This document shows positions 363 through 19,366 of a stretch of 27,012 nt of DNA, piece by piece. Below the pieces are notes generated by a model. That model saw only the letters and a list, made by a program, of their open reading frames with translations, searched no databases and was not told the origin of the DNA. The DNA lies in the IMG/VR virus record IMGVR_UViG_3300008220_000050, positions 1 to 27,012 of that record. One strand, written 5' to 3'. The position numbers and the translations under genes are program-made. The stretch's first letter is position 1, and every line of letters begins with the position of its first letter. This DNA is from a virus.

Positions 363-391
363 GAACATCTGGCTATGATAACCTTTTGTTC
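363..391. promoter_or_regulatory. 29-bp dyad operator, copy 1
   Basis: Half-sites GAACATCTGGCTA and TAACCTTTTGTTC are separated by 3 bp. This copy lies just upstream of the promoter at 404-431, so a bound dimer could act on the first rightward promoter. One base in the right half-site departs from the consensus (TAACC for TAGCC). Confidence 0.8.
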
Positions 392-403
392 CGAACAAAG
401 TTC

Positions 404-431
404 TTGACACTGTCTATTTTCCTGTTAGTGT
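404..431 (+). promoter_or_regulatory. Promoter for the first rightward gene (cassette copy 1)
   Basis: TTGACA (404-409) is followed after 16 bp by an extended -10 element, TG at 423-424 and TAGTGT at 426-431. The -10 hexamer is weak but the -35 is perfect. The 27 bp from 406 to 432 recur with three differences at 2150-2176, also as a promoter-like element ahead of a gene, and both copies begin with a GACA-n-TGTC dyad. The 29-bp operator copy 1 abuts it upstream. Confidence 0.6.
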
Positions 432-484
432 CTTATTTGTAGCGAGCAATCCCGCTTGTTATTAATCAATGGAGTAATTAAAAG

Positions 485-1240
485 ATGAATAAACTAAACG
501 ATAATACAGCTCGCGAACTTCTGGGTATTACAACCAAAAGTTCGTTGTATCTGAATCAAGCTCAGTTAGCCGCGTGTACTGCTATGGGTAATATAGCAGG
601 TGAACTTGAGATAACTCAGGGGCAGTTATATGTTAAGGAAATAGAGTTAGCCTGTGCGTTCTATAACATAGTAACCGACGGCGGTAAGGTTGAGCCTGAC
701 TTTAATGTATGGACTCAATCGCGTAAGTTAGTTACAAAATTATGTGTAGATGCTCACGGATTAAGTGAGGATAGAGTACGTCACATAATAGGTAAGGCTA
801 TTAAGTTACTTGCTGAGGGTGTTCTTGATTGCAGTTTAGATAGCGCTACCGCAGGTGAAGTACTGGTAGCAACGAAGCCTGCAAAGGCAACACCTGATGC
901 GGTTCGAATGAGCGCAAAACGTGCCGCGTTGGTTGAGAAGTTTGAAGGAAAATCCGATAGCGATTTAATGGCTGAAGCTCAGGAACTTGGTAATACAGGT
1001 AACTATGCAGAGGCAGGCGAATTTGCTAAGGAACTAGAATCTAGGCAGAAAGCCCAAGCGAAAGCAACGGCAAAAGCAGAACGTTCTGGTAGAACTGAGC
1101 TTAACAAAGAGGTACGCGGCGGATTGAAAGACGCGTCCACTGAGTTAGCGGCTTACATGGCATGGCTCGTAAAGCATGAAGATAGTCAGGCTGAGTTCAT
1201 AGCTCAACAGATTAATGCTTGGAAAGAACATACAAGTTAA
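485..1240 (+). CDS. Unknown protein, first rightward gene (251 aa)
   Basis: I do not recognise this family. The start ATG has GGAG about 9 bases upstream and is the first gene after the promoter at 404-431. The N-terminal 110 residues look compact and mixed alpha/beta. Residues about 130-210 are rich in Ala, Lys and Glu and read as helical or coiled, with a basic stretch around KAQAKATAKAERSGR. The C-terminus is again ordinary. There is no signal peptide or membrane segment, so it is probably cytoplasmic. Codons 11-20 themselves form a copy of the 29-bp dyad operator, so this gene may be repressed from within its own coding region. It is transcribed alone, since a strong terminator follows 20 bp after its stop. 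A regulatory or DNA-binding role is a guess from position only. Confidence 0.8.
   Translation: MNKLNDNTARELLGITTKSSLYLNQAQLAACTAMGNIAGELEITQGQLYVKEIELACAFYNIVTDGGKVEPDFNVWTQSRKLVTKLCVDAHGLSEDRVRHIIGKAIKLLAEGVLDCSLDSATAGEVLVATKPAKATPDAVRMSAKRAALVEKFEGKSDSDLMAEAQELGNTGNYAEAGEFAKELESRQKAQAKATAKAERSGRTELNKEVRGGLKDASTELAAYMAWLVKHEDSQAEFIAQQINAWKEHTS
515..543. promoter_or_regulatory. 29-bp dyad operator, copy 2 (inside a coding region)
   Basis: Half-sites GAACTTCTGGGTA and CAACCAAAAGTTC are separated by 3 bp. It occupies codons 11-20 of the first rightward gene and is the only copy inside a gene. With copy 1 it brackets the promoter at 404-431, an arrangement compatible with DNA looping or a roadblock. 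Confidence 0.75.
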
Positions 1241-1259
1241 TTAATCTACGTAGTTAATT

Positions 1260-1285
1260 AAGCCCCACTTCGGTGGGGTTTTTTT
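1260..1285 (+). terminator. Rho-independent terminator
   Basis: A stem AGCCCCAC / GTGGGGTT closed by a TTCG tetraloop is followed by a run of seven T. It begins 20 bp after the stop of the 251-aa gene and separates it from the repeat region. This is the only textbook intrinsic terminator I found in the window. Confidence 0.93.
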
Positions 1286-1297
1286 ATGCCTGCAATC

Positions 1298-1326
1298 GAA
1301 CTTTTGGTTATCCTAGCCATTTGTTC
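1298..1326. promoter_or_regulatory. 29-bp dyad operator, copy 3
   Basis: Half-sites GAACTTTTGGTTA and TAGCCATTTGTTC are separated by 3 bp. This is the left outer arm of the nested symmetric locus 1298-1489, just downstream of the terminator. Confidence 0.85.
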
Positions 1327-1350
1327 ACTTGGTCAGCTTTGTTCTCTGTT

Positions 1351-1451
1351 ACCTTCCCTCACTATTATCTTAACTGTACGGTCATAAGGGAGTAACATGT
1401 ACGGTCATAAGGGAGTGTGATGCGCTGAACTGGTTTGGTTTGAGGGAAGGT
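1351..1451. repeat. Inverted repeat ACCTTCCCTCA / TGAGGGAAGGT enclosing a direct repeat
   Basis: An exact 11-bp inverted repeat (1351-1361 and 1441-1451) encloses two direct copies of TGTACGGTCATAAGGGAGT (1375-1393 and 1398-1416, period 23). Outside these arms lie AGCTTTGTT and AACGAAGCT, complementary at 8 of 9 positions, and outside those the operator copies 3 and 4. The whole has near mirror symmetry centred around 1395. Nothing here codes for protein. Confidence 0.8.
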
Positions 1452-1460
1452 CAACGAAGC

Positions 1461-1489
1461 TAACATCTGGTCATGATAGCCACTTGTTC
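1461..1489. promoter_or_regulatory. 29-bp dyad operator, copy 4 (degenerate)
   Basis: Half-sites TAACATCTGGTCA and TAGCCACTTGTTC are separated by 3 bp. It is the most diverged copy in the left half-site and forms the right outer arm of the symmetric locus 1298-1489. Confidence 0.7.
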
Positions 1490-1502
1490 ACTGAGTTAAC
1501 TT

Positions 1503-1519
1503 CGCGACATTGTGTCGCG
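1503..1519. promoter_or_regulatory. CGACA-n3-TGTCG palindrome, copy 1
   Basis: CGCGACATTGTGTCGCG is a perfect 7+3+7 palindrome. It is the longest member of a set that recurs at 1941-1953, 1979-1991 and 2125-2137. It is flanked on both sides by AGTTAACTTCG (1494-1504 and 1529-1539). A second class of DNA-binding site distinct from the 29-bp dyad is likely. Confidence 0.65.
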
Positions 1520-1686
1520 TTATTGTCAAGTTAACTTCGTTATACTGCATTGCACAATGTGTAATTTTGTAATAATAGGTGTAATTTTATAAACCCAGTG
1601 GTAGCAAGGGTTTCAGCTGTATTATTACATTATTACATTATTACACTAAATAAATTAGCTTTGGGTAATAAAAAAATGATCAAGAT

Positions 1687-1700
1687 ATACCATCTGTATA
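1687..1700. repeat. 14-bp repeat ATACCATCTGTATA, copy 1
   Basis: An exact 14-mer that recurs three more times at 2013-2071. It is separated from the other copies by about 310 bp and lies inside the TGTAAT cluster. Confidence 0.6.
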
Positions 1701-1764
1701 TTCTTCGTTATCTTCGTTCAAAGAAGATACGCAGTGCAGAGTTCTTCCCAAAAACGTGTAATAA

Positions 1765-1866
1765 TGTAATTTTACTTACTTATCATGCACTTAAGGTGTA
1801 ATGATACAAAGCTAACAAAGCTCAAACATGTAATTTTACTTACCTTTCATACACTTAAGGTGTAAT
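1765..1866 (+). repeat. 38-bp direct repeat pair
   Basis: Units 1765-1802 and 1829-1866 differ at 3 of 38 positions and have a 64-bp period. Each starts and ends with TGTAAT and contains CACTTAAGG. They form the core of the iteron-like region. Confidence 0.75.
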
Positions 1867-1940
1867 TTTATACCAAGCTAACTTTGTACATTTAGTGGTA
1901 ATTCAAGCACTTAATAAAATTACACATTTCAGGCTCGATT

Positions 1941-1953
1941 CGACAATATGTCG
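1941..1953. promoter_or_regulatory. CGACA-n3-TGTCG palindrome, copy 2
   Basis: CGACAATATGTCG, perfect 5+3+5 symmetry, in non-coding DNA. Confidence 0.6.
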
Positions 1954-1978
1954 TTCTCACCTCGTTAATCACCTAATA

Positions 1979-1991
1979 CGACAAAATGTCT
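1979..1991. promoter_or_regulatory. CGACA-n3-TGTCG palindrome, copy 3
   Basis: CGACAAAATGTCT has one mismatch at the outer base. Its right half overlaps the left arm of the 12-bp inverted repeat at 1987-2030. Confidence 0.5.
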
Positions 1992-2030
1992 ATACAGAAC
2001 GTATATTTATTTATACCATCTGTATAGACA
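1987..2030. repeat. 12-bp perfect inverted repeat TGTCTATACAGA / TCTGTATAGACA
   Basis: Arms 1987-1998 and 2019-2030 are exact complements around a 20-bp AT-rich spacer. The right arm contains the CTGTATA core of the 14-bp repeat, so the two repeat types share recognition sequence. It could be a cruciform or a binding site for two dimers. Confidence 0.65.
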
Positions 2031-2071
2031 AAATTGTACCTTTTATACCATCTGTATATACCATCTGTATA
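2013..2071. repeat. 14-bp repeat ATACCATCTGTATA, copies 2-4
   Basis: Exact copies lie at 2013-2026, 2045-2058 and 2058-2071, the last two in tandem sharing one base. With copy 1 there are four exact occurrences in under 400 bp, as expected for initiator or regulator iterons. Confidence 0.7.
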
Positions 2072-2124
2072 ACATTTTACGTTGGACCAATTCACTTCCC
2101 CAAAATATGTTCGCCCCAGTTTCG

Positions 2125-2137
2125 CGACAAAATGTCG
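2125..2137. promoter_or_regulatory. CGACA-n3-TGTCG palindrome, copy 4
   Basis: CGACAAAATGTCG, perfect, 11 bp upstream of the -35 of the promoter at 2148-2175. This is a good position for regulating that promoter. Confidence 0.6.
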
Positions 2138-2147
2138 AACATTATAT

Positions 2148-2175
2148 TTGACAATGTCTATTATTCTGTTAGTGT
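2148..2175 (+). promoter_or_regulatory. Promoter for the main rightward operon (cassette copy 2)
   Basis: TTGACA (2148-2153), a 16-bp spacer, TG at 2167-2168 and TAGTGT at 2170-2175. It is 24 of 27 identical to the first promoter cassette. Transcription would start near 2183, giving a leader of about 190 nt before the gene at 2374. That leader carries operator copy 5 and strong secondary structure. Confidence 0.6.
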
Positions 2176-2229
2176 CATATGTGAGGGGAGAAGTTATAAA
2201 TGTTCGCCAGTGCGGACTTTATACACCTC

Positions 2230-2258
2230 GAACAAATGGTTATGTTAGCCATTTGTTC
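2230..2258. promoter_or_regulatory. 29-bp dyad operator, copy 5
   Basis: Half-sites GAACAAATGGTTA and TAGCCATTTGTTC are separated by 3 bp and match at 12 of 13 positions, the most symmetric copy. It sits about 50 bp downstream of the predicted start of the main operon promoter, so a bound protein would block elongation rather than initiation. Confidence 0.85.
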
Positions 2259-2369
2259 ACACTCATTTCGAGTGATGTAAGAGGCAGATACATGGACTCA
2301 GTTAACTTCTCTCCATTGACTGGAACGGACACCGTAAGACTTACATCACTCACTTTTAAACGGAGAGAA
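2259..2369 (+). promoter_or_regulatory. Structured 5' leader with mutually exclusive pairings
   Basis: GAGTGATGTAAG (2270-2281) and CTTACATCACTC (2340-2351) are exact 12-bp complements. The first arm can alternatively pair locally, CACTC (2259-2263) with GAGTG (2270-2274). In addition TTCTCTCC (2307-2314) is complementary to the ribosome-binding segment GGAGAGAA (2362-2369) of the next gene. The leader could therefore fold as a long stem, a pseudoknot, or a form hiding the ribosome site, suggesting translational control of the operon's first gene. This is sequence complementarity only; no energies were computed. Confidence 0.5.
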
Positions 2370-2373
2370 CAAA

Positions 2374-2709
2374 ATGAAAAGCACAAATCCACAACAACTT
2401 ATGCAACAAGCCGAATCGAATCCTGCATCAATAAATTATTACAATGGGGCGGTTGAAGTAATCATTACCGCAACTATCGCTCGATTTCCAACGGCTGAAG
2501 ATTGCAAATATATTGGCGACGACCTCGAACAATCTTTGAGCTATCTGAAAGCAAACAGTAAATACTTTGATGGAAGGCACAAATTATCTTTACATTGGCA
2601 AGGTAAGAATGAAGATGACAAGTTCATACCGCTCCAAATTTGTGTTGGCTTGCCTGACGGAATGGGCTTACCTGTTGAATGGTTCAATATCAGAGAATGT
2701 AAATACTAA
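2374..2709 (+). CDS. Unknown protein, first gene of the main operon (111 aa)
   Basis: I do not recognise the family. The ATG has GGAGAG 6 bases upstream, and this ribosome site may be masked by the leader. The protein is a small soluble domain with no membrane segment or signal. It has a Gln/Asn-rich N-terminus, a central beta-like stretch (VEVIITATIARFPT), and a C-terminal half rich in aromatic and Gly residues (residues 80-111). The next gene follows after 14 bp with its own GGGG site. Another frame open across the same start (from 2082) has no ribosome site and runs through the promoter and dyad, so I rejected it. Confidence 0.75.
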   Translation: MKSTNPQQLMQQAESNPASINYYNGAVEVIITATIARFPTAEDCKYIGDDLEQSLSYLKANSKYFDGRHKLSLHWQGKNEDDKFIPLQICVGLPDGMGLPVEWFNIRECKY

Positions 2710-2723
2710 AAAGGGGAAACAAA

Positions 2724-2948
2724 ATGACTGTATCAACCACAGAGCACAAGATGCTCGAACTCGCAGGATATTTCTACCACTCAACTAATACATGGACAGC
2801 ACCCATGTGTGTCCTTCAGGCATGTGCAGAATATAAATTGTCTTTAGCACCACATATGTTACGACTGTTCACCTTACACCTCACACGAGGCATAGACATA
2901 GCCACAGCGGAAGGAGTTGTATCATTCCATGAAATGCACACAGTGTAG
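2724..2948 (+). CDS. Unknown small protein (74 aa)
   Basis: Unknown family. The start ATG is preceded by AAAGGGGAAACAAA, a usable ribosome site. The peptide is largely helical (residues 7-50) with the motif LQACAEY at about residue 31. The 18 bases encoding this motif recur exactly, in the same reading frame, in the 67-aa gene at 3123. The last 20 bases overlap the next gene, whose ribosome site AAGGAG lies inside this one, so the two are probably translationally coupled. Confidence 0.7.
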   Translation: MTVSTTEHKMLELAGYFYHSTNTWTAPMCVLQACAEYKLSLAPHMLRLFTLHLTRGIDIATAEGVVSFHEMHTV

Positions 2949-3126
2949 TAACGAAGTTAACAATGCCAGACATGACTTAGGATATGACACGTGTATGCCG
3001 TGTGGCGAGACAGAGGCTCGACTGAGAGTCCACTGTGTCGTACCCATGCACAAGTCTAATTATGTTGTCATTACCAATAAACAAGACCTTAAAGGAATCA
3101 ACAACAAAGGAGGGTTCCACAAATGA
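2929..3126 (+). CDS. Small zinc-finger (DksA/TraR-like) phage protein (65 aa)
   Basis: I start at ATG 2929, 12 bases after AAGGAG; the upstream TTG at 2917 directly abuts that site and cannot be used. The N-terminus has two cysteine pairs, MKCTQC at the start and DTCMPC about 16 residues later, around a NARHDLGYDTC stretch. This is the shape of the DksA/TraR-type zinc finger. The second half (VVPMHKSNYVVITN, then GINNKGG) matches a pattern I recall from small conserved phage proteins. A role in contacting host RNA polymerase is known for DksA/TraR but is inference here. The stop overlaps the next ATG as ATGA. Confidence 0.7.
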   Translation: MKCTQCSNEVNNARHDLGYDTCMPCGETEARLRVHCVVPMHKSNYVVITNKQDLKGINNKGGFHK

Positions 3127-3326
3127 GAAAATCTAAAGAAGCTAAGCAGAATGACATAGAACGCAAGAGATTATTACAGGCATGTGCAGAATATGAGCGG
3201 CACACATTCGTAATAAACGTGAGGCTAAGAGCAGACGCAGTAATTAACAGCAGTGAAGATGCTAGGTTGACCAACATGGCGGCTGATTACTGGGCTGAGA
3301 GTGGTTTAAATAGGGAGGGTTGGTGA
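3123..3326 (+). CDS. Unknown mosaic protein (67 aa)
   Basis: A good AAAGGAGGG site precedes the ATG. The protein is charged and helical. Two of its segments are shared with neighbouring genes. LQACAEY is encoded by the same 18 bases as in the gene at 2724. EDARLTN(M/I)AADY is encoded by a 36-bp stretch (3255-3290) matching 6970-7005 in the VWA/metallopeptidase gene with one mismatch. In that gene the segment is followed by GTAGTTAACAGCAGT; here nearly the same 15 bases precede it, as after a tandem duplication or permutation. It looks assembled from neighbouring gene pieces. It lacks HExxH and is too short to be a peptidase. Confidence 0.65.
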   Translation: MRKSKEAKQNDIERKRLLQACAEYERHTFVINVRLRADAVINSSEDARLTNMAADYWAESGLNREGW

Positions 3327-3329
3327 AGA

Positions 3330-3752
3330 ATGCGGAACAAACTCAAAAGACTTAACACCCATGAGAGAGGGCAAGGTTGGCATTGGTTAAAATTGCATCT
3401 TATGTATTTGTCTAAAAACAATACAAAACCACACGGCTACCAATACGATAGTAGTATTGCTAAGTGCAGGCTCATAAACAGTGTTCTCGATCAAAATAGA
3501 TGGGAGAGAAGTATAAGAGGGTATATAGGTCAGGAAGTGAGAGATAATTTATACCCACATCAACTATGGAGAGTTACCCAATGGGCGCAGGGAATTGAGC
3601 ATCAATGGGATTGGGACAACCTGCCATTTCCTAAGAAGGTTATTGCCTATTGCCGTAAAAACTATGGGGCAACTCAGGAGCCTGCATTTTTGACTGAGAA
3701 AATACTTAAGAAGTACAAACCTAAACGTAAAGTTTTTAAATTGAGGAGATAA
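3330..3752 (+). CDS. Unknown basic protein (140 aa)
   Basis: Unknown family. The start ATG follows GGAGGGTTGGTGAAGA and lies 3 bp after the preceding stop. The protein is rich in Lys, Arg, Trp and Tyr, with clustered basic residues at both ends (RNKLKRLNTHERGQGWHW and KKYKPKRKVFKLRR). It has no membrane segment, so nucleic-acid binding is plausible but unproved. The next gene starts 2 bp after its stop, with a GAGGAG site inside this gene's last codons. Confidence 0.72.
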   Translation: MRNKLKRLNTHERGQGWHWLKLHLMYLSKNNTKPHGYQYDSSIAKCRLINSVLDQNRWERSIRGYIGQEVRDNLYPHQLWRVTQWAQGIEHQWDWDNLPFPKKVIAYCRKNYGATQEPAFLTEKILKKYKPKRKVFKLRR

Positions 3753-3754
3753 TC

Positions 3755-4207
3755 ATGGGTAGATATTACTCAGGCGATATCGAAGGGAAGTTCTGGTTTG
3801 GTAGCCAAAGCAGTGATGATGCGGATAACTTTGGTGTAACAGGTACACCACCTGACTCACACTTAAACTATCACTTCAGAGAAAAAGATTTACCTAATAT
3901 AGAAAAAGGTCTTGAGGTATGTGAATCAACCTTGAACGACCTGAGTCCTTTTCTATTAGAAATATATCATGAGCACAACTTCTGTAAATCAAGCACGGAG
4001 TGGAAAACCATGTATGACACTCCACCGCCTAAACTTACGTTCCCTGCAAATACGAGCTTGAAAACTAAACTGCGATCGCAAAGTGTACTGCTGACTGAAG
4101 ACCAAATAAACCTAGCAACAGAAGTATATGCTCGGTTGATACTGGGCAGAAAGATTTACATGAAGGTAGTAGAAGATGGTGAATGCTTCTTTGAAGCAGA
4201 ACTTTAA
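3755..4207 (+). CDS. Conserved-looking phage protein, MGRYYSGDIEGKFWFG type (150 aa)
   Basis: The ATG has GAGGAG 8 bases upstream. The opening motif (GRYYSGDIEGKFWFGSQSSDDA) is a pattern I remember from uncharacterised phage early proteins, but I cannot name a function. The sequence is soluble and acidic, with a helical segment ILTEDQINLATEVYARLI near residue 120. It is followed by the first sizeable gap in the operon, which contains operator copy 6. Confidence 0.7.
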   Translation: MGRYYSGDIEGKFWFGSQSSDDADNFGVTGTPPDSHLNYHFREKDLPNIEKGLEVCESTLNDLSPFLLEIYHEHNFCKSSTEWKTMYDTPPPKLTFPANTSLKTKLRSQSVLLTEDQINLATEVYARLILGRKIYMKVVEDGECFFEAEL

Positions 4208-4210
4208 CCA

Positions 4211-4239
4211 GAACATTTGGCTATCCTAGCCATTTGTTC
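4211..4239. promoter_or_regulatory. 29-bp dyad operator, copy 6
   Basis: Half-sites GAACATTTGGCTA and TAGCCATTTGTTC are separated by 3 bp. It fills the gap between the stop at 4207 and the ribosome site of the gene at 4259. No promoter is visible beside it, so it would act within the transcript path. Confidence 0.85.
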
Positions 4240-4258
4240 ATAACTTAGGAGAGATGAT

Positions 4259-5338
4259 ATGGGATTCTTTTCAGACACTGCACTTGTGCCACACTTTAAG
4301 GGTTATCAAGATGTAGTTGATAGATTTAACAGCGCTAAGCACATACGCAATAGCAGTGAAAATGAAAGACGATTGTGTGACAGCGGAATGGATAGTGATA
4401 AAGATAAGAACGGCAGGCGACAGAAGCATAAGCTTTTAAAACGTGTTCCGATTACGGCAGATTGTTATGGCGAGCAAATGTATGAAGTGTCTCTTCATGA
4501 TAATACTATTGTTGAATACCACCCCACTTACTATGCCATAAACATGTGTGGTTGGAACAGCACTAGCACCATTGGTATGTTAGAAAAACTTACAGGGAGT
4601 GAGATACATCCGTTTAACCCACATGCCTATGCACCCAAGGGATTCCCTACAACCACAGAGAAAAGAGACCACCGCCGAGGTTATCGCACACCTAAAGTAA
4701 CTGTAAGATTTAAACGTTGGGAAATGAAAATTCCAGTTACTACCCTCACCAGTGCGGTTGCTGTGTGGTTTCCAGAAGGTCGAGCAACGAACAGAGTGTT
4801 GGTAGGACGAACCGAGTTTAATGATTCTGTATCAGGGTATCTCATTGACGACTCAAAAAAATACACGTTTAACTACGATAACACCCCCATTGACACTAAA
4901 CAGTTTGCTGAGTTTCACAAGTGCAAAGTTAACAGAAAAGAACTAAACAAAGTAAGGAAGGAGGTAAAACCTTTTGTAGATTATGTTAAGGCTACCCTCA
5001 CACTAACTTCAAACGATGGAGGTAAGTCTGTGCCTCAAGAGTCATGCGGCTTAAGAGAGACCCACACGGGTGAAGTAATTAGTGATTACATACACAACCT
5101 CAAGGCTTCAGAAATGTACAGCCTCATATATTTTTACTGTCAGTTAAAAAAATCTAAGGAGGTTAAAAATTATTTTGATTCGATAGATGAAGGTAGGTTG
5201 TGGGCAGAAATGCTTGACGCGCTAAAAATAGAGCACCATATACCATACAGGTCGATTGTTTTTATCGAAGACATAATGTGTGACCTAGATAAGATTATGA
5301 AACACGCTAACCCACGTACATTAGTACGAGTTAGTTAA
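4259..5338 (+). CDS. Unknown protein (359 aa)
   Basis: Unknown family, preceded by TAGGAGAGATGAT. There is a charged, low-complexity region at residues 30-60 (SSENERR, DSDKDKNGRRQKHKLLKR). A folded-looking middle (60-200) follows, with several aromatic motifs (YHPTYYAINMCGWNST), then a helical C-terminus with paired Lys/Glu. No catalytic motif, signal or membrane helix is evident. It sits between operator copies 6 and 7, one of the units that the dyads punctuate, and directly upstream of the MoxR gene. Confidence 0.75.
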   Translation: MGFFSDTALVPHFKGYQDVVDRFNSAKHIRNSSENERRLCDSGMDSDKDKNGRRQKHKLLKRVPITADCYGEQMYEVSLHDNTIVEYHPTYYAINMCGWNSTSTIGMLEKLTGSEIHPFNPHAYAPKGFPTTTEKRDHRRGYRTPKVTVRFKRWEMKIPVTTLTSAVAVWFPEGRATNRVLVGRTEFNDSVSGYLIDDSKKYTFNYDNTPIDTKQFAEFHKCKVNRKELNKVRKEVKPFVDYVKATLTLTSNDGGKSVPQESCGLRETHTGEVISDYIHNLKASEMYSLIYFYCQLKKSKEVKNYFDSIDEGRLWAEMLDALKIEHHIPYRSIVFIEDIMCDLDKIMKHANPRTLVRVS

Positions 5339-5341
5339 CCT

Positions 5342-5370
5342 GAACTTCTGGCTATTGTAGCCAAAAGTTC
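5342..5370. promoter_or_regulatory. 29-bp dyad operator, copy 7
   Basis: Half-sites GAACTTCTGGCTA and TAGCCAAAAGTTC are separated by 3 bp. It begins 4 bp after the preceding stop and ends about 10 bp before the ribosome site of the MoxR-like gene. Confidence 0.88.
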
Positions 5371-5391
5371 GCAACTTAAAAGGAGAATGTA

Positions 5392-6438
5392 ATGGAAACA
5401 ACCATTAGTTTAAAAGAAGCAGAAGAGTTAATTGCCCAAGTGGGTAAAGATTTAACTGTACACCTCAGAGGACAACCAGGAATTGGTAAGTCCACACTAC
5501 TAACTACACTAGCCAAGAGATTCCCTGACTACGAGCCAGTCTACATTGACTGCGCAGACTTAGACTTGGGTGACTTGGCTATGCCTGCCATGAATCATGA
5601 GTCAAAGACCACAGCATTCTACCCAAATGAAAGGTTTGCAATTCATAAAGGTAGACCTGTGCTTGTGATGCTTGATGAGATAACTAAAGCATCTGAGCCT
5701 GTCAAGAATATGCTGTTGCCTGTGATGCTTGAACGCAGACTAGGAGCAGTGGAGTTTCATCCTGATAGCATAGTGTTTTCCACAGGTAACCTTACGACTG
5801 ATGCTGTGGGTGACAACATAAAAGCACATGCTAAGAACAGGATTAGTCAGGTAACAGTGCGCAACCCTAATGACACTGAATGGTGTGCGTGGGGTGGAGA
5901 TAATGATATAGCACCAGAGATATTGGCTTGGGTTAATCAGTTCCCTCATTGTCTTGCGTCTTACACGGATAAGTCACAGGCTGAGAACTTCTATATCTAC
6001 AACCCTGCTAAACAACAAGATGCGTTCGTATCACCACGTTCATTAGCTAAGGCTTCATTCATAGTCAAAACAAGACATGAACTAGGAGACAATGCCACGA
6101 TGGTAGCACTAGCAGGGACTATCGGTGAAGCCGCGGCTCGTGATATGTCTGCGTACTTTAGCCTCGCTGATGCACTACCTACCAGAGAAGCTATCTACAA
6201 CACACCAGAAAAAGCGAAGTTGCCTGATGACCCCGCGGCCAGAGTTATTCTAATCATGCGTGAGTTGCAGGCATACAACAAGAAAACCTTTCAGGCTGTT
6301 ACTCAATACTTAGAGAGACTACCTAAAGAGTTACAGGCTCTGTTCTTTACTTCGATCATGAATTCCCAACATCAGTATGAAATATCGAAACTAAAATCAT
6401 TCACAAACTGGGTAAACAAGAACCACCAATTTTTATAG
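5392..6438 (+). CDS. MoxR-family AAA+ ATPase (348 aa)
   Basis: An ATP-driven remodelling protein of the MoxR/CobS-like AAA+ group. Walker A is GQPGIGKST (residues 27-35), Walker B is VLVMLDE (90-96) and sensor 1 is VFSTGN (128-133). A downstream Arg in AKNRISQV is a plausible finger. The length is normal for the family. MoxR ATPases typically work with a VWA-domain partner, and such a partner lies 260 bp downstream (6697-7881), with one small gene between. A DUF3150-like protein follows later in the operon. The target is unknown; the pair may act as a chaperone or a metal-insertion device. The start has AAAGGAGAATGTA upstream, and operator copy 7 precedes it. Confidence 0.88.
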   Translation: METTISLKEAEELIAQVGKDLTVHLRGQPGIGKSTLLTTLAKRFPDYEPVYIDCADLDLGDLAMPAMNHESKTTAFYPNERFAIHKGRPVLVMLDEITKASEPVKNMLLPVMLERRLGAVEFHPDSIVFSTGNLTTDAVGDNIKAHAKNRISQVTVRNPNDTEWCAWGGDNDIAPEILAWVNQFPHCLASYTDKSQAENFYIYNPAKQQDAFVSPRSLAKASFIVKTRHELGDNATMVALAGTIGEAAARDMSAYFSLADALPTREAIYNTPEKAKLPDDPAARVILIMRELQAYNKKTFQAVTQYLERLPKELQALFFTSIMNSQHQYEISKLKSFTNWVNKNHQFL

Positions 6439-6449
6439 GAGAATAAATT

Positions 6450-6713
6450 ATGAGTAACGAAAACTTAACTACTAAGCAACGTACAGCTTTATATCTAGCA
6501 ATAGATGATACTAAATATGCGTATCGAGATAAATTTGACGATATACCTAAGGTACATACTGAGATGGCAAATTCTATATTGTGGGAATCCTTAGGACGTT
6601 ATTACTTTCTCGGTCAATATACCTTTGATAAGGCATTAAAATATGCTGAATCAGAGGCTAGTGATTACTTAATGAAATACTCAGGGGAGGATAGTGATGG
6701 CGAAGCTAACTAG
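6450..6713 (+). CDS. Unknown small protein between MoxR and VWA genes (87 aa)
   Basis: Unknown family. The ATG follows ATAGGAGAATAAATT. It is predominantly helical, with many Tyr, Asp and Glu residues and an acidic C-terminus (SGEDSDGEAN). Its last codons contain the ribosome site AGGGGAGG of the next gene and overlap it by 17 bp, so it is likely co-translated with the VWA protein and may belong to the same complex. Confidence 0.75.
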   Translation: MSNENLTTKQRTALYLAIDDTKYAYRDKFDDIPKVHTEMANSILWESLGRYYFLGQYTFDKALKYAESEASDYLMKYSGEDSDGEAN

Positions 6714-7881
6714 ACCAGAAGATAGGGTTACTAAGGCACACATTCGTATCATGACCAGTCCTGAGTTCTGTATGTTCTCAGGTGTGTTGTCAATAGGGGA
6801 TATAACTTTTAGCAGAGATATACCTACCGCGTGTACTAATGGACGTGATGTTATCTATAACCCTGACTTCATAGACACGATGAATGATAAGGAGCTTACG
6901 TTCGTGATACTTCATGAAGCTATACACAAAGCCTTTCAACATATGACTATGTGGGAAAAGCTGTTCAAGGAAGATGCTAGGTTGACCAACATAGCGGCTG
7001 ATTACGTAGTTAACAGCAGTATTGTGGAAGCTGACCCCAAGAAAGCGCGGTGTGAAATGCCTAGTAATGCTCTGTATGACAAGAAATATGATGGCATGAC
7101 AACAAAGCAAATCTTTGAGCAGCTAAAGAAAAACCCTCCTCCACAGGGAGGTAAGGGAGGTGAGGGTAAAGATGGGGATCAAGAGACTTTGGACTCACAT
7201 GACTGGGAAGGTGCTAAGAAAATGTCTGAAGCGGAGAAAACAAAGACTCAGAAACAGATAGACCAAGCACTGCGCCAAGGAGAAGTAATCAGAGGAAAAC
7301 TCGGAGGAAATACTAACAGAGGAGTTAAGGAGTTACTCGCGCCACAAGTGAACTGGCGAGAACAGCTACGAGAGTACGTCACCACTGTGTCCAAGAGTAA
7401 AGATGAAACTTCTTTTAAGCGACCACATAGGAGGTTTATAGGTCAGGATATTTATATGCCTTCTATGATAGGTAACTGTGTAAATAAAATAGTTATCGCG
7501 GGAGATTTGTCTGGCTCTATCAGTAAGGAAACAGAACGTAAGTTTCTGACTGAGGCAATACAAGTCTGCAAGGATGTTAACCCTAAGAGCATTGACCTCA
7601 TTTGGTGGGACTATGAGGTGCAAGGACATGAGGTCTACATGGAGGGAGAGTATGACACTATCTTAGAACGCACCAAACCAAAAGGTGGGGGAGGAACTCG
7701 TGTTGGGTGTGTAAACAATTTTATTAAAGATAAAAGGTTAGAACCTGATGTTGTAATTATTCTTACTGATGGTTATGTGGAACACGACTGGGGTGGTGAT
7801 TGGAAGTACCCAACGTTATGGGCGATTACAAGTAAGTATTGTGATTCACCGCACGGTAAATCAATTTATATAGACGAGTAA
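6697..7881 (+). CDS. VWA-like metallopeptidase-domain protein, MoxR partner (394 aa)
   Basis: I choose ATG 6697, 6 bases after AGGGGAGG, over GTG 6694. The N-terminal half matches the putative metallopeptidase domain of the DUF2201 type. It has HEAIH (residues 73-77), followed by LTNIAADYVVN, which corresponds to the conserved second motif of this group. A Gly/Pro-rich flexible linker (about 145-165) follows. The C-terminal half is a VWA-like domain with a MIDAS-type DLSGS motif (270-274) and a later ILTDGY. Proteins of this build pair with MoxR ATPases. It may be a protease, or HExxH may only hold metal. A 36-bp segment (6970-7005) is duplicated in the 67-aa gene at 3123. Confidence 0.85.
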   Translation: MAKLTRPEDRVTKAHIRIMTSPEFCMFSGVLSIGDITFSRDIPTACTNGRDVIYNPDFIDTMNDKELTFVILHEAIHKAFQHMTMWEKLFKEDARLTNIAADYVVNSSIVEADPKKARCEMPSNALYDKKYDGMTTKQIFEQLKKNPPPQGGKGGEGKDGDQETLDSHDWEGAKKMSEAEKTKTQKQIDQALRQGEVIRGKLGGNTNRGVKELLAPQVNWREQLREYVTTVSKSKDETSFKRPHRRFIGQDIYMPSMIGNCVNKIVIAGDLSGSISKETERKFLTEAIQVCKDVNPKSIDLIWWDYEVQGHEVYMEGEYDTILERTKPKGGGGTRVGCVNNFIKDKRLEPDVVIILTDGYVEHDWGGDWKYPTLWAITSKYCDSPHGKSIYIDE

Positions 7882-7886
7882 CAAAC

Positions 7887-7915
7887 GAACAAATGGCTAT
7901 TGTAGCCAAAAGTTC
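7887..7915. promoter_or_regulatory. 29-bp dyad operator, copy 8
   Basis: Half-sites GAACAAATGGCTA and TAGCCAAAAGTTC are separated by 3 bp. It abuts the AGGAGG ribosome site of the following gene (7916-7921), so bound protein, or the RNA hairpin, could also affect translation. Confidence 0.88.
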
Positions 7916-7927
7916 AAGGAGGTGAAT

Positions 7928-8134
7928 ATGTATTTTGTAACAATTTTATGGGGTGAAAACCCTAGTAAATATGAGGAACCAGAACAGTATTACTTTAACA
8001 CTGAGCAAGAACGAGAGGCATTTATGTCTGGAGTAAACACTGCGATGGGGTGGCAAGACTATGACGTGCAGTTTCATAGTACTCCAAAGAAATTTAAACA
8101 CGAAGAGTTTGATAACTATAAAGGAGAAGAGTAA
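7928..8134 (+). CDS. Unknown small protein, VTILWG family member A (68 aa)
   Basis: ATG 7928 is 6 bases from AGGAGG; GTG 7922 directly abuts it and is rejected. The protein is acidic. It is clearly paralogous to the 103-aa product at 8735: both have VTILWG, a Glu/Asp/Tyr-rich segment, F(N/D)TE(Q/E)E, an AF or AFLHGV segment, then (G)W(Q/M)(D/E)Y(D/E)(V/I). The function is unknown. A domain of about 45 residues predicted to be alpha/beta is shared. The stop overlaps the next ATG by one base. Confidence 0.75.
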   Translation: MYFVTILWGENPSKYEEPEQYYFNTEQEREAFMSGVNTAMGWQDYDVQFHSTPKKFKHEEFDNYKGEE

Positions 8135-8505
8135 TGAGTGAAATAGAGAAAGCAACGGAGCATATGCTCAAGATAGTAGAAATACTTAAAGGTGTCGATA
8201 AACGACTAAAAAATCTGGAGGGTAACAAGATGAATATAGAAGGTGTAGACGCGCAACAAATAATTGATGGGATTAGAGATAATCTGGACTATGGTGAGAT
8301 AGCAGACCATATAAACCCATCTGATGTTGCTGAGCACATAGATCAAAATAGTATAGTAGAGGATGTAGCACAATACTATGGCGCAGAAGGTATAGCTGAA
8401 CACATAGATGTAGACCAAGTGGCCGAGCACGTGGAGGTTAATTACAAAGCATTGGCTCAGCATTTAATAAAAGCTTTTATGGGTGGTAAGGAGGATAAGT
8501 CATGA
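8134..8505 (+). CDS. Unknown acidic protein with internal AEHID repeats (123 aa)
   Basis: AAAGGAG lies before the ATG. After a short coiled-coil-like N-terminus (residues 1-30), the rest is a string of degenerate units built on (A/D)(D/E)HI: IADHINPSDVAEHID, then IAEHIDVDQVAEHVEV. The units are about 15-25 residues, strongly acidic, with His at regular positions. This could be a metal- or protein-binding helical repeat. No known family is assigned. It ends EDKS, encoded by the ribosome site of the next gene. Confidence 0.72.
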   Translation: MSEIEKATEHMLKIVEILKGVDKRLKNLEGNKMNIEGVDAQQIIDGIRDNLDYGEIADHINPSDVAEHIDQNSIVEDVAQYYGAEGIAEHIDVDQVAEHVEVNYKALAQHLIKAFMGGKEDKS

Positions 8506-8738
8506 GTTCAATAAAAGTAACAGAGAAAGCATTAGAGTTTCGTACACCAAATTGCTATACGCAAAATGGTGATGAAGAAGGAATGAAATGTCGTTGGTAT
8601 GACGACGTGCATGAGCAGATGGAAATGTTATTTGATAAATGGTTAGAGGAACACCCTGAGTTTAAGGACGCAGACCTTTTTCCATACAACACTAGAGTAG
8701 TCTTTGATATTGGAACCAATGAGGAGGATAAGTCATGA
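8502..8738 (+). CDS. Unknown acidic protein (78 aa)
   Basis: The start overlaps the previous stop (ATGA). The ribosome site and start, GGAGGATAAGTCATGAGT, are identical over 18 bp to those of the next gene (8723-8740). The protein is acidic and rich in Trp, Glu and Asp, with no recognised motif. Its end NEEDKS resembles the ends of its neighbours because the same AGGAGG site encodes it. Confidence 0.7.
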   Translation: MSSIKVTEKALEFRTPNCYTQNGDEEGMKCRWYDDVHEQMEMLFDKWLEEHPEFKDADLFPYNTRVVFDIGTNEEDKS

Positions 8739-9046
8739 GTGATAAAGAAACATTATTAGGAAATTCTCAAGTTAATAAATGTAGTGACGTCGCTACCAAC
8801 AGCGAAAAGAATTCAGTAACTATTCTATGGGGTCAAGCATTACGTAAAGATAAACCTGACACGTATGAATTTGATACAGAGGAAGAACTTTATGCATTTC
8901 TGCATGGAGTTGAGGAGAGTTCTGGGTGGATGGAATATGAAATCTTGTGCGAAATGAGTGATAACACGTGGCAAAAAGATAGTGATGGCACACGTATGGT
9001 GGTAACGAGTGACGGCAAATGGAGAGAGGAAGAGGAGGATAAGTGA
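8735..9046 (+). CDS. Unknown protein, VTILWG family member B (103 aa)
   Basis: This is the paralogue of the 68-aa protein at 7928. The shared region covers roughly residues 27-70 (VTILWG, then YEFDTEEELYAFLHGV and GWMEYEI). It has an extra 25-residue N-terminal tail and a charged C-terminal tail. The ATGA overlap and AGGAGG site support the start. The function is unknown. Retention of two copies within 1 kb suggests a dosage or pairing role. Confidence 0.72.
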   Translation: MSDKETLLGNSQVNKCSDVATNSEKNSVTILWGQALRKDKPDTYEFDTEEELYAFLHGVEESSGWMEYEILCEMSDNTWQKDSDGTRMVVTSDGKWREEEEDK

Positions 9047-9300
9047 TGGACTATGTAGACACAAAAGTATTTTGGAAAACTATAGCACTAATCAAATCAG
9101 TAGGAGATATAACTGAGGAGAGAGGTACTTTAGATTCAGGTAAAAAGAGTGGGATACAACAGGTATTTTATAAAGATGGTGAGGGGATAGTAGTGGGGGA
9201 AGTTCTTCGTGAACCCCCCGACCCTACTAACCACTACATTAACTACACATACATAACAAGTAAACCAGAACTTTGGGAAAAAGTTAAGGAGGTATCATGA
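9046..9300 (+). CDS. Unknown small protein (84 aa)
   Basis: ATG 9046 is 7 bases after AGGAGG and overlaps the preceding TGA; GTG 9043 is closer and less likely. It is a soluble sequence with a beta-rich middle (GIQQVFYKDGEGIVVGEVLREP) and a Tyr-rich end. Unknown family. Its last codons carry the AAGGAGG site of the next gene. Confidence 0.7.
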   Translation: MDYVDTKVFWKTIALIKSVGDITEERGTLDSGKKSGIQQVFYKDGEGIVVGEVLREPPDPTNHYINYTYITSKPELWEKVKEVS

Positions 9301-9716
9301 GTAAACACCCTGTAAGAATCTACCAAGAACAGATGGAAAAAGATGGTGGGTTTGAAGAATGCGAGGAGCATATTGAACTTCTAGAAGATTGTTATCCTGG
9401 GTACGTAGAAGATGATGAACATTCTGAACAACAATATGAAATGGTATTTGAAGATAAAGTACAAGAAGCTAGAGACTTACTCTATAACCACCCAGAATCT
9501 TTTGCAGAGATAATAGAGGAACTCAGAGCAGAGGATAGAGAATATGATTTTGATTTCGCTAAGGCTTTTATGGATAACTTGAAAGACTTACCCCATGCAG
9601 AGGAGGAAACAAATGTCATAAGGTCTCACAGCATAGTAATAAACATACGAAAAGCATATGAAAATTTGATAGACGCATATGCTGAAACATTAACCAGAAA
9701 AGAACTAGGAGGATAA
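9297..9716 (+). CDS. Unknown very acidic protein (139 aa)
   Basis: The start lies in an ATGA overlap with AAGGAGG before it. Glu and Asp make up roughly a third of the residues, with long helical stretches (about 20-100). Such highly acidic small phage proteins sometimes mimic DNA or sequester host proteins, but nothing here proves that. No family is recognised. The next gene starts 1 bp after the stop with an AGGAGG site. Confidence 0.72.
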   Translation: MSKHPVRIYQEQMEKDGGFEECEEHIELLEDCYPGYVEDDEHSEQQYEMVFEDKVQEARDLLYNHPESFAEIIEELRAEDREYDFDFAKAFMDNLKDLPHAEEETNVIRSHSIVINIRKAYENLIDAYAETLTRKELGG

Positions 9717-9717
9717 C

Positions 9718-10353
9718 ATGAGCATAAACTTAGCATCGCAACATTTAAAGCATTGTATTGATGTTAGCATGACGTTTAATTGGAAATTATTTAGCGCTAG
9801 GCAACAGAAAAGTATCATAAAGCCTTTGAGAGAGGGTGTGGTAAAAGATAGCGAGTGCACGACAGCGCAACTAGCACGTCGTATCGCTAGTAAATGTGGT
9901 GTGCCTTTAATTAAAGTGTCGCAGTATGGACTAGAGATTCCATTCAATTCTCACTCACTTATTGATTTAACACACCCTGTTTGGAACGCGCTGATGAGGC
10001 ACTATCTAATGTGTAAAGTTTTATGTCCCGACATCAGAGGATTAGATGAAAATATAGAAGAGTTGGAAAAACTCCTCAACTGTAAAGCATATCCGCATAG
10101 GCCAGAACAAAGTCGTTACAACTGGGATCTGTATTTTACATATGACAAAATAAACCCAAAAGTTTTTACGCAGTTTAAAAAAGATTTAGTTACTCCCGTC
10201 AAGCTTAAACCAGAAGACGCGGAGTTTTTAAATAGGTTAGAAAAAGGATTAGAATCAAACATAACCCTTTCTCTTGACCTTCACGGTTGGAATCATGATT
10301 ACATAAACAGTGCAAGTATTACCAAGACAGCACCAAGTGGTACTAAACTATAA
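9718..10353 (+). CDS. Unknown protein (211 aa)
   Basis: The start has AGGAGG 7 bases upstream. The first 90 residues include a basic stretch (TTAQLARRIASKCGVPLIKVSQYG) that could be a helix-turn-helix-like segment, though weakly. The rest is mixed. There are no catalytic motifs. The tail is Ser/Thr-rich, and the stop codon lies inside a short tandem repeat of ACTATAA at 10342-10363. Confidence 0.72.
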   Translation: MSINLASQHLKHCIDVSMTFNWKLFSARQQKSIIKPLREGVVKDSECTTAQLARRIASKCGVPLIKVSQYGLEIPFNSHSLIDLTHPVWNALMRHYLMCKVLCPDIRGLDENIEELEKLLNCKAYPHRPEQSRYNWDLYFTYDKINPKVFTQFKKDLVTPVKLKPEDAEFLNRLEKGLESNITLSLDLHGWNHDYINSASITKTAPSGTKL

Positions 10354-10363
10354 ACTATAAACT
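10342..10363 (+). repeat. Short tandem repeat across a stop codon
   Basis: About three units of ACTATAA/ACTAAA run in tandem through the stop codon of the 211-aa gene and up to the AGGAGG site of the next. Unit gain or loss would keep the frame-independent junction but change the spacing. It is probably a slippage product. Confidence 0.55.
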
Positions 10364-10376
10364 AGGAGGATTCATT

Positions 10377-11243
10377 ATGGAATCAGTAAGCATAGCATCA
10401 AGCGCAGTCCAAATAGATCTCAACATATCTACATGGACAGCACGTAAACTAGATAGAAAAGTTTCAGAAGAGATTGATGGAACTAAGAAAGCTAATACAC
10501 GAGCAGGCAATTACAACAAGCACTTGCTCGCAGGCACTAAACAACTGAAAGACATTCAGTCATTGACTGGGGAAATAAGAAACTGGCATGTAAAGCAGAC
10601 ACTTCCTTGGTCTGACAATGGTACGCGGTTGTTACCAATGAGTAACTTTTTTAAATACAAGGAACAGCTAACTGAGTATCAGCATCAGTTTGATACTAAA
10701 GTGCAACAGCTAGTGCAAGACTATCCTCAGTTAATAAGTCTTTCAGCTTTTAACTTGGGTGAGTTATTTAATCGAGACGATTACCCTCCCGCGGAGGAAA
10801 TTGAAAGTAAATTCAACCTGAGCTACACTATTATTCCCGTGCCTGAGGCAGGAGATTTTAGAGTAGATATTGGGAACGACATTCGTCAAGAACTTGAGAC
10901 TCAATATGAGGATGCTTATCAACAAAAGGTGGAGACAGCTATGAGTAGTGCTTGGTCTAGACTACACACCACATTAGAAAATATGGTGGCAAAACTAGCC
11001 GACCCCCGATGGAATGAAGAGGACACTAAGAACCCTCAGGTTTATGATTCGTTCATAGGCCATGGGATGGAGCTAACCTCTCTTCTGACAAGTCTTAACA
11101 TTACAAATGATAATGACTTAGAGCAAGCGAGAATAGGTCTCGAACAAGCATTGGCAGGGGTTCAACCTGACATGATTAAAAACCAACCTTACGTCAGAGA
11201 AAAGTTACTCAAGGATGTTCAATCCATTAAGGACTTAATATGA
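10377..11243 (+). CDS. DUF3150-like protein (288 aa)
   Basis: AGGAGG precedes the ATG. The sequence around residues 75-95 (TLPWSDNGTRLLPMSNFFKY) and the later YPQLIS, LGELFNRDDYPPAEEIESKF and IIPVPEAGDFRVDI fit my memory of DUF3150, a family found in mobile elements together with MoxR ATPases and VWA/CobT-like proteins. That context is present here (5392-7881). The protein is mostly helical, soluble, and has no catalytic motif. It may be an adaptor or substrate of the MoxR-VWA pair. The family call is from memory of the pattern, not from a search. Confidence 0.55.
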   Translation: MESVSIASSAVQIDLNISTWTARKLDRKVSEEIDGTKKANTRAGNYNKHLLAGTKQLKDIQSLTGEIRNWHVKQTLPWSDNGTRLLPMSNFFKYKEQLTEYQHQFDTKVQQLVQDYPQLISLSAFNLGELFNRDDYPPAEEIESKFNLSYTIIPVPEAGDFRVDIGNDIRQELETQYEDAYQQKVETAMSSAWSRLHTTLENMVAKLADPRWNEEDTKNPQVYDSFIGHGMELTSLLTSLNITNDNDLEQARIGLEQALAGVQPDMIKNQPYVREKLLKDVQSIKDLI

Positions 11244-11617
11244 AGGTAATAAAACTGACTGATGAAGATGATGCTGACTATCTTAGGAAAAAAGAAAGGG
11301 TAGCCATAGGAACGTTAAAACTAGCAGGAGACGGTTCTTATGTTAAAGGTGTAGGTATGCGTGATGGGGACTTCTATTTACTAGAGGAGACATCCGAAGA
11401 CTCTGAGTATATGGCTTTTATAGGTGAAGTTGATCCTACACAGCGCCAATGGTTAGTTGATACTATACTGACGAACGGTACAAAAAACACATTAGACATA
11501 GACTTACCTCCTATTCCAGAAGGTAGCACTCTTGTTTTCTTCAAAAAAATACGCCGTAAAAAGTGCTTGTTCAGAACTTTATGGGACTTCACGATTGTAG
11601 AGAAAAGTTTGTTTTAA
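11240..11617 (+). CDS. Unknown protein (125 aa)
   Basis: The start overlaps the previous stop (ATGA), with weak ribosome-site support, so coupling is likely. The N-terminus is acidic, the middle is beta-rich (VKGVGMRDGDFYLLEE), and the C-terminus is basic and aromatic (FFKKIRRKKCLFRTLWDF). No known family. The operator copy 9 starts 3 bp after the stop. Confidence 0.68.
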   Translation: MKVIKLTDEDDADYLRKKERVAIGTLKLAGDGSYVKGVGMRDGDFYLLEETSEDSEYMAFIGEVDPTQRQWLVDTILTNGTKNTLDIDLPPIPEGSTLVFFKKIRRKKCLFRTLWDFTIVEKSLF

Positions 11618-11619
11618 AC

Positions 11620-11648
11620 GAACAAATGGTTATCATAGCCAAAAGTTC
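11620..11648. promoter_or_regulatory. 29-bp dyad operator, copy 9
   Basis: Half-sites GAACAAATGGTTA and TAGCCAAAAGTTC are separated by 3 bp. It fills the gap before the VRR-NUC gene, which has no clear ribosome site of its own. It is the last copy in the window; the replication block has none. Confidence 0.88.
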
Positions 11649-11660
11649 TATGTTTATGTG

Positions 11661-15312: not shown

Positions 15313-15543
15313 ATGCAGTATATAAAAGACTCTAACATTTTAAGACCTCCTACTCCTAAAGAAATAAAAGACCTTAGAACAGATACTGGGTTAACTGTTG
15401 CTCAAGCATCTAACCTAATACATAAAACAGCACGATCTTTTCAAAGATGGGAACGAGGGGATGGTGATATGCCCTTAGCTTATTGGGAGCTGTTTGAACT
15501 AAAATGTAAAGTTCTTAAAATGCGTGAAGGCGCTATGGTTTAA
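15313..15543 (+). CDS. Small helix-turn-helix protein, XRE-like (76 aa)
   Basis: Residues about 13-50 form a Cro/XRE-type HTH: TPKEIKDLRTDTGLTVAQ, then ASNLIHKTARSFQRWERGDGDMP. The WERG after the recognition helix is characteristic. It starts one base after the preceding stop with no evident ribosome site, suggesting translational coupling. The next gene is a second HTH protein of the same layout. One of these could read the 29-bp dyad or the CGACA palindromes. The cognate DNA is not shown. Confidence 0.8.
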   Translation: MQYIKDSNILRPPTPKEIKDLRTDTGLTVAQASNLIHKTARSFQRWERGDGDMPLAYWELFELKCKVLKMREGAMV

Positions 15544-18162: not shown

Positions 18163-19118
18163 TGACAAGTGAAATAGATGTATTTAAAGACAAACCTACA
18201 GAAATGGTTAAAAGTAATAGAGAGGATGGGTTTTCTCATAACATAACTGGAAGCTCATCTACAAGCAAAAGGATTTCTATACGTAATAATTTATTTAGGT
18301 TAATTATTAACGGGGAAGAAATTAGCAAAAGCAATCAACGACACTTAGATGTGGTTATTGTAAATGCTTCTCCTTCTGTGCACAGGATGTTTTACCCTGA
18401 AGCATACAGACCGGGGACTAAATTATCTCCACCTTCATGTTGGAGTTCTGACGCTCAAGTTCCTGATAAAGATGTATTAGAACCACAGCATAAAGATTGC
18501 TCTGAATGTCCACAAAACATTAAAGGCTCAGGCCCTAATAACACTAAAGCATGTAGGTTTAGTAGACGCATAGCTGTTGTTATGGCAGATAATTTAGAAG
18601 GCGATGTATATCAATTAACTCTCCCTGCTCAATCTATATTTGGAACGGGTGATGATACTGGTAAACCATTAAATAAATATGCGGATTACGTAAAAGCAAA
18701 TAAAGAAGCCGTAGGCTCAGTAGTTACTCGTATGTCTTTTGATGAAAACTCTTCCAGTACTAAGGTTAAGTTTTCGCCGGTCTCTAGATTATCGGATGAA
18801 GAATTTGAAATATCTAAAGGCCAGGGAGCTACTGAAGATGCTCAACGAGCTATTACTTTAACTGTAGTTAAAAGAGAGCCTGAGGTGGATGAAAAAGATT
18901 TACCTAAAGCTTTTAGATTAACTGAAAAAGATGAAAGCGATGAAATTGAAGCTGAGAAAAAAGAAGCAGTTGCTGAACCTGTTAAGAAAAAAACAAGTAG
19001 AAAAAAGAAAACTAAAACTGAAACGCCCCAAGGCGATATGTTTAAAGAGTCTGAAGACAAACCCGTACAAGACACAGGTGATGTGAGTCTTGATGATTTA
19101 GTATCTGATTGGGAGTAG
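18162..19118 (+). CDS. Putative single-stranded DNA-binding protein with Cys motif (318 aa)
   Basis: A GAGGAGGTAGAATA site precedes the ATG. Residues 30-230 look like an OB-fold-type beta-rich core. It contains a CxW...HKDCSEC...C motif (residues about 87-125) that could bind zinc, as in T4 gp32. The last 90 residues are disordered and Lys/Glu-rich and end in an acidic DVSLDDLVSDWE tail, the hallmark of ssDNA-binding proteins that recruit replication partners. It lies between the coiled-coil gene and the primase-helicase. The assignment rests on build and position, not a family match. Confidence 0.55.
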   Translation: MTSEIDVFKDKPTEMVKSNREDGFSHNITGSSSTSKRISIRNNLFRLIINGEEISKSNQRHLDVVIVNASPSVHRMFYPEAYRPGTKLSPPSCWSSDAQVPDKDVLEPQHKDCSECPQNIKGSGPNNTKACRFSRRIAVVMADNLEGDVYQLTLPAQSIFGTGDDTGKPLNKYADYVKANKEAVGSVVTRMSFDENSSSTKVKFSPVSRLSDEEFEISKGQGATEDAQRAITLTVVKREPEVDEKDLPKAFRLTEKDESDEIEAEKKEAVAEPVKKKTSRKKKTKTETPQGDMFKESEDKPVQDTGDVSLDDLVSDWE

Positions 19119-19126
19119 GAGATAAT

Positions 19127-19366
19127 ATGAGAGGTTATTCACAAAAAGTAATTAATGATAATAAAAAAGCTACACCTGTAACACCCGGCATAAAGTTAGG
19201 TAAATTATGTATCAAACTTATGTACCCCGCGGCAGAGATAGCTAAAAAACTAAGTACATCTAGGCAATGCGTTTATAATTGGTTTTGTGGTAAGTCCACA
19301 CCCAGTAAAAATAACATTGAAAAAATAAATCAGTTAATAAAAGATTTAACTGCTGAATATAAATGA
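19127..19366 (+). CDS. Small helix-turn-helix protein (79 aa)
   Basis: ATG 19127 follows TAGGAGATAAT; the TTG at 19109 is rejected. Residues about 20-60 (GIKLGKLCIKLMYPAAEIAKKLSTSRQCVYNWFCGKSTPS) form an XRE-type HTH in which VYNWFCGKSTP is the recognition helix and turn. The N-terminus is basic. It is not a close paralogue of the two HTH proteins at 15313-15831. Possible roles are repressor, replication control or operator reading. Confidence 0.78.
   Translation: MRGYSQKVINDNKKATPVTPGIKLGKLCIKLMYPAAEIAKKLSTSRQCVYNWFCGKSTPSKNNIEKINQLIKDLTAEYK

Follow-up and report, generated by a model that had tools for sequence, protein, structure and literature searches.

The early region of the phage genome studied here is punctuated by a long palindromic motif, raising the question of what reads these sites and to what end. 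The stretch analysed, hereafter the window, comprises 27,012 bases of an IMG/VR virus record. Scanning it for GAACnnnTGGYTAnnnTAGCCAnnnGTTC with up to 3 mismatches gave 18 strand-matches, that is 9 sites, against an expectation of 0 from dinucleotide shuffles; a backwards control pattern gave 0 as well. The nine 29-bp dyads of the original prediction were thus recovered exactly where it had placed them, at 363, 515, 1298, 1461, 2230, 4211, 5342, 7887 and 11620. Six of the nine match the motif exactly on the plus strand, and the degenerate ones are 363 (right arm TAACCT), 515 (TGGGTA/CAACCA) and 1461 (outer arm TAAC, plus TGGTCA).

Two copies belong to the locus of the first early gene, a plus-strand leader gene (485-1240) encoding a 251-aa protein without known family. 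Copy 1 (363-391; homologous site at 2068 in the related contig G004) stands upstream of the promoter-like sequence of this gene, TTGACA-N15-TTAGTGT with a poor -10 (404-431, plus strand, TTGACA at 404-409). The same sequence occurs in G004 and, as a second promoter-like element on the plus strand, at 2148-2175 upstream of the main early operon. Copy 2 (515-543) does not occupy a gap but falls within codons 11-20 of the leader gene, and it is retained in G004 at 2211. A noncoding region of about 1.1 kb with iteron-like repeats (1241-2373) contains the next three: copy 3 (1298-1326) just past the intrinsic terminator of the leader gene (1260-1281), copy 4 (1461-1489) further within the region, and copy 5 (2230-2258) in the leader of the main early operon. 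The remaining copies occupy the operon gaps. Copy 6 (4211-4239) precedes the gene at 4259, whose start is 19 nt downstream, and copy 7 (5342-5370) precedes an AAA ATPase gene at 5392, 21 nt from its start. Copy 8 (7887-7915) abuts AGGAGG, with the gene listed at 7922 and an ATG 12 nt downstream, and copy 9 (11620-11648) abuts the gene listed at 11658, with a GTG at 9 nt or an ATG at 12 nt. Five operon copies had been described as lying immediately before ribosome sites; with gene starts taken from six-frame ORFs, 4211, 5342, 7887 and 11620 have a start codon 9-21 nt downstream, with a clear AGGAG-type site at three of the four, and 2230 is 115 nt from the ATG at 2374. The mid-operon copies indeed have no sigma-70-like promoter overlapping or directly preceding them on the plus strand. 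Intrinsic terminators were also considered and rejected; 4211 scores on the plus strand and 7887 on the minus strand, but the right N3 arms are often AAA.

The same code, GAAC-www-TGGYTA-nnn-TARCCA-www-GTTC, was found by a motif scan of IMG/VR in seven other contigs, including the 66-kb G004. Across eight homologous dyads of G000 and G004, the 20 specified bases are 90-100% identical, and identity is lower on average both at the N positions (0.44 to 1.00) and in the upstream flanks (0.55 to 0.97). The motif is therefore conserved in relatives at homologous sites, the lack of which had been named beforehand as an argument against a network. More distant relatives, found by a DNA polymerase search and then by reading longer contigs, carry dispersed dyads of other sequence in the same early region. 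We count at least 15 codes, a lower bound drawn mostly from metagenome contigs, with overlap among contigs and loci. A phage with 86% identical polymerase (G007) has a single GAAC-nnn-AAGGAA-like dyad; at 70% identity (G013) the code reads GACA-nnn-YTACCA-2-TGGTAR-nnn-TGTC and at 67% (G014) GAAC-nnn-TGCCYA-4-TRGGCA-nnn-GTTC. Others are GTTCYG-nnn-TGCACT-4-AGTGCA-nnn-CRGAAC (G026), GTGGCA-4-TGCCAC plus outer arms (G027), a GGACAttCCGGTA-type code (G015), GCGACA-3-TGTCGC (G019), ACCTACA-3-TGTAGGT (L085) and GTTATAC-1-GTATAAC (G025), besides further ones. CTAACA half-sites occur with spacers of 1 (G018), 2 (G017 and G020) or 3 bp (G016), and TTAAAC-3-GTTTAA (G009) and GGAAC-3-GTTCC (G011 and G012) separate phages with 89% identical polymerase. 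In the cultured Rhizobium phage RHph_TM3_14A, GTTACC-N6-GGTAAC occurs at 41 places with up to 2 mismatches, in both early and late regions and in some cases inside genes.

A de novo search of sequences of at least 8 kb found a significant dyad family in 52 of 102, against 1 of 102 Markov-resampled controls, the 102 being not independent, since some loci overlap and a record may be represented both by a locus and by its full contig. G013 and G014, not significant in that search, were accepted on inspection, and no convincing network was seen in five long relatives (G021, G023, Rollin, KPP25 and pSTEC648_2). The palindromes are dispersed, and in G004 the genes between them differ by gain or loss; they could in principle be selfish or mosaic repeats, REP-like linkers with no regulatory function. 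We consider this extremely unlikely, since homologous sites retain the specified bases and the N positions drift, and since the whole code differs from lineage to lineage, which is not expected of independent repeats.

The kind of position is shared across codes. In 18 networks, 85 of 186 dyads are followed within 60 nt by an open start and a stretch resembling a ribosome site (median distance 22 nt), compared to 19% for positions drawn at random from those regions, the motif patterns and search regions, here and in the G-U/A-C test below, having been picked by eye after the networks were found. In the full-length aquatic contigs inspected, the early region holds the bulk of the dyads. In most of the relatives inspected with a complete early region, this region opens with a first early gene of roughly 165-250 aa, and dyads are located before it, behind it, or within its leader or opening codons; in G022 and G027 the arrangement was not clearly seen. 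Sites heading gene groups might be internal promoters or activator boxes, each dyad recruiting a phage activator or an altered polymerase, and lineage-specific codes fit a phage-specific transcription factor equally well. We judge this unlikely, because the 9-21 nt between dyad and start codon at 4211, 5342, 7887 and 11620 leave no room for a -10-like element, and because dyads flank the leader promoter on both sides and also occur within genes of RHph_TM3_14A.

Do the dyads act as DNA or as RNA? Rich in A and T, the N3 arms show no more pairing across the dyad than shuffled arms do, in keeping with what was first noticed, and the preference expressed then for a protein reading DNA over RNA hairpins is supported by two comparisons. 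Compensatory covariation, which would have pointed to RNA, was looked for by shuffling right halves among 20 distinct copies, and no position showed a significant excess of pairing. Likewise, RNA function should make G-U mismatches commoner than A-C on the transcribed strand, yet in 275 copies sense-strand G-U mismatches were not above A-C (34 vs 42, p=0.42). Hairpins in the early transcripts, serving as translational operators, processing or attenuation sites, would suit dyads that sit just ahead of ribosome sites; four window copies are predicted to fold at -6.7 to -13.3 kcal/mol, and one symmetric C-G switch occurs in G004 at 4331. Beyond the two comparisons, the arms of relatives are 1-3 bp apart with predicted stems of merely -0.9 to -4.4 kcal/mol, copy 363 precedes a promoter-like element, and Rfam gave no match. 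RNA function is thus very unlikely, and it keeps that small share because four window copies would still fold well. Recognition of the dyads as DNA is supported.

A role in replication, partition or nucleoid organisation, with iteron or parS-like sites, was weighed as well. Three copies lie in or beside the iteron-like noncoding region, near a canonical parS. Most copies are nevertheless spread across 11 kb at gene starts, no ParB gene was found in ten contigs searched, the window included, and the code differs between relatives with 70% identical polymerase, which makes this role highly improbable for the dyads. As to the region itself, its repeats (TGTAATTTTACTTACC.., TATACCATCTGTA and CGACAnnATGTCG) make it a possible replication origin. 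The parS palindrome, TGTTTCACGTGAAACA, is exact and canonical and lies at 214-229, just upstream of the first dyad; G004 and G002 each have one near-exact copy (one mismatch) at the corresponding position. Since the ten contigs lack a ParB gene, a host ParB might serve this site. Also near the start of the early region, a small CxxC...CxxC protein (2917-3126), with no Pfam match above the cut-off, is kept in most relatives.

Having weighed these alternatives, we find it probable that the dyads are DNA operators or roadblocks for a phage-encoded, lineage-specific repressor that damps early transcription. The regulator would be a DNA-binding protein bound to the dyads as a dimer or higher form. 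On the leader-gene dyads it would autoregulate its own synthesis, and at the gaps within the early operon it would form an operator-bound roadblock that damps early transcription or switches it off; in temperate members, bound dyads would keep it off. Operator sequence and reader may drift together, giving each lineage its own code with the kind of site position retained.

Our best candidate for the reader is the leader protein (485-1240), whose gene has dyads of its own at 363 and 515 and to which we would give somewhat less than an even chance. The leader gene diverges fast among relatives, and leaders with detectable homology tend to have the same or nearly the same half-sites (groups II and III, with a weak E=2e-4). 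In a partial Mantel-type test, leader divergence correlated modestly with dyad divergence beyond that of the polymerase (partial r 0.22, p 0.013); the test does not single out the leader, because the VWA protein scored 0.29. The leader protein has no Pfam or PHROGs assignment, and two AlphaFold2 models of low confidence (mean pLDDT 60 and 63) had no significant Foldseek match among solved or viral structures. Queries with it retrieved only members of the window clade from viral contigs and nothing from plasmids, and the Rhizobium leader (MN988472.1 18372-19100 in RHph_TM3_14A) matched only in four Rhizobium phages. Three helix-turn-helix proteins had been suggested as binders, and none is favoured. 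The recognition helix of the one at 19109 (originally listed at 19127) is near-identical in relatives with different dyads, the protein of G009 sharing 95% identity with that of G010/G011 despite their different dyads. Those at 15313 and 15544 were found only in the close clade of the window, and the former shares 91% identity with its counterpart in G007, a contig in which the single dyad recovered differs in its inner arm. A ribbon-helix-helix-like gene, present in the CTAACA phages tested, was rejected too: G021 also has it although CTAACA dyads were not detected there, and several networks lack it.

How does this network compare with known ones? The stoperators of cluster A mycobacteriophages (L5, Bxb1, Trixie) are many dispersed repressor-bound sites of about 13 bp, mostly in one orientation, subcluster-specific and tracking repressor divergence, and a site close to the repressor gene has been proposed to autoregulate it (PMC6550527). 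They are asymmetric and read by a known monomeric two-domain repressor (PMC9283540). Bound repressor halts transcript elongation there. The original prediction had likened the dyads to stoperators, and the likeness holds for the way they would work, with many dispersed sites mostly outside promoters (9 in the window, up to about 40 in relatives). The asymmetric, singly oriented site that defines cluster A is not found, since the dyads here are two-fold symmetric and 13-34 bp long across the family. An integrase was not found in the aquatic contigs tested, and the Bradyrhizobium relatives have integrases. Among the part of the proteins of this fragment that was scanned with Pfam/PHROGs, nothing related to a known repressor turned up and no cluster A-type immunity repressor was matched. 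Phage P1 disperses 22 operators of its C1 repressor widely over its genome, with the 17-bp asymmetric consensus ATTGCTCTAATAAATTT (PMC8546580). Wide dispersal in one phage genome is common to both; sequence and symmetry differ, and P1 is a temperate plasmid prophage whose reader, C1, is known. Closest in symmetry are the CIRs of phiC31, a temperate phage of the actinobacterium Streptomyces, about 18 dyad copies, many of them early-region and intergenic, read by a known immunity repressor. To our knowledge, no family-wide series of different codes has been described for them. The dyad sequence itself is unlike known ones, as had been claimed, and no paper on this network was found in the open literature (subscription papers mostly lie outside its coverage).

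Dispersed operator or stoperator networks have been described mainly for temperate actinobacterial phages and P1. The present one spans a family of phages of about 60-66 kb, rhizobial ones included, with many codes on one conserved gene map. It offers a natural series for studying how specificity shifts jointly in a reader and in dozens of sites, as in CTAACA with 1, 2 or 3-bp spacers or TTAAAC vs GGAAC, and the cultured RHph_TM3_14A is a phage in which such a change is testable.

Integrated relatives were seen only in a distant Bradyrhizobium branch. Bradyrhizobium sp. 139 carries a relative whose sequence is divided between two contigs, each of which continues into chromosomal genes. A 170-kb contig starts with the early part; behind it come genes for a serine recombinase and a methyltransferase, an 801-aa ORF (no Pfam match) and chromosomal genes. 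The late part lies next to glycyl-tRNA synthetase genes on a contig of 61 kb. We read this pair as one integrated prophage split by assembly. These two contigs hold 20 of the 22 GTTACC-N6-GGTAAC sites in that genome (up to 1 mismatch). Bradyrhizobium SA-3 has a phage-sized contig with a tyrosine integrase behind the primase gene. Given these integrases, and since 12 of the longer virus contigs from this family yielded neither a serine nor a tyrosine type (the window being a 27-kb fragment), an immunity role for the network is plausible for the rhizobial branch and conjectural for the clade of the window. A bolder reading, to our mind doubtful, is that of a private-code operator network across a family apparently largely without integrases, in which the fast-evolving leader would serve as reader and represent a new type of DNA-binding protein. 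During lytic growth such a network would time the early genes, and it may exclude superinfecting phages in a lineage-specific way; on this reading, the reader and its operators, up to about 40 of them, would have been re-coded together at least 15 times.

Three side observations follow. In the two Bradyrhizobium relatives, unrelated integrases of serine and tyrosine type follow the same primase gene (L218 3486-5165 and G033:C42:59997-60461). The circular 60.6-kb E. coli record pSTEC648_2 (L227) has phage genes and a ParB-family gene and holds a distant relative of the 950-aa primase-like protein of the window (22.5% over 81%); it looks like a distantly related phage-plasmid. Finally, the "putative integrase protein" EVB41_076 of RHph_TM3_14A (L070 42239-45322) aligns with the same 950-aa protein, and its annotation as an integrase therefore looks wrong.
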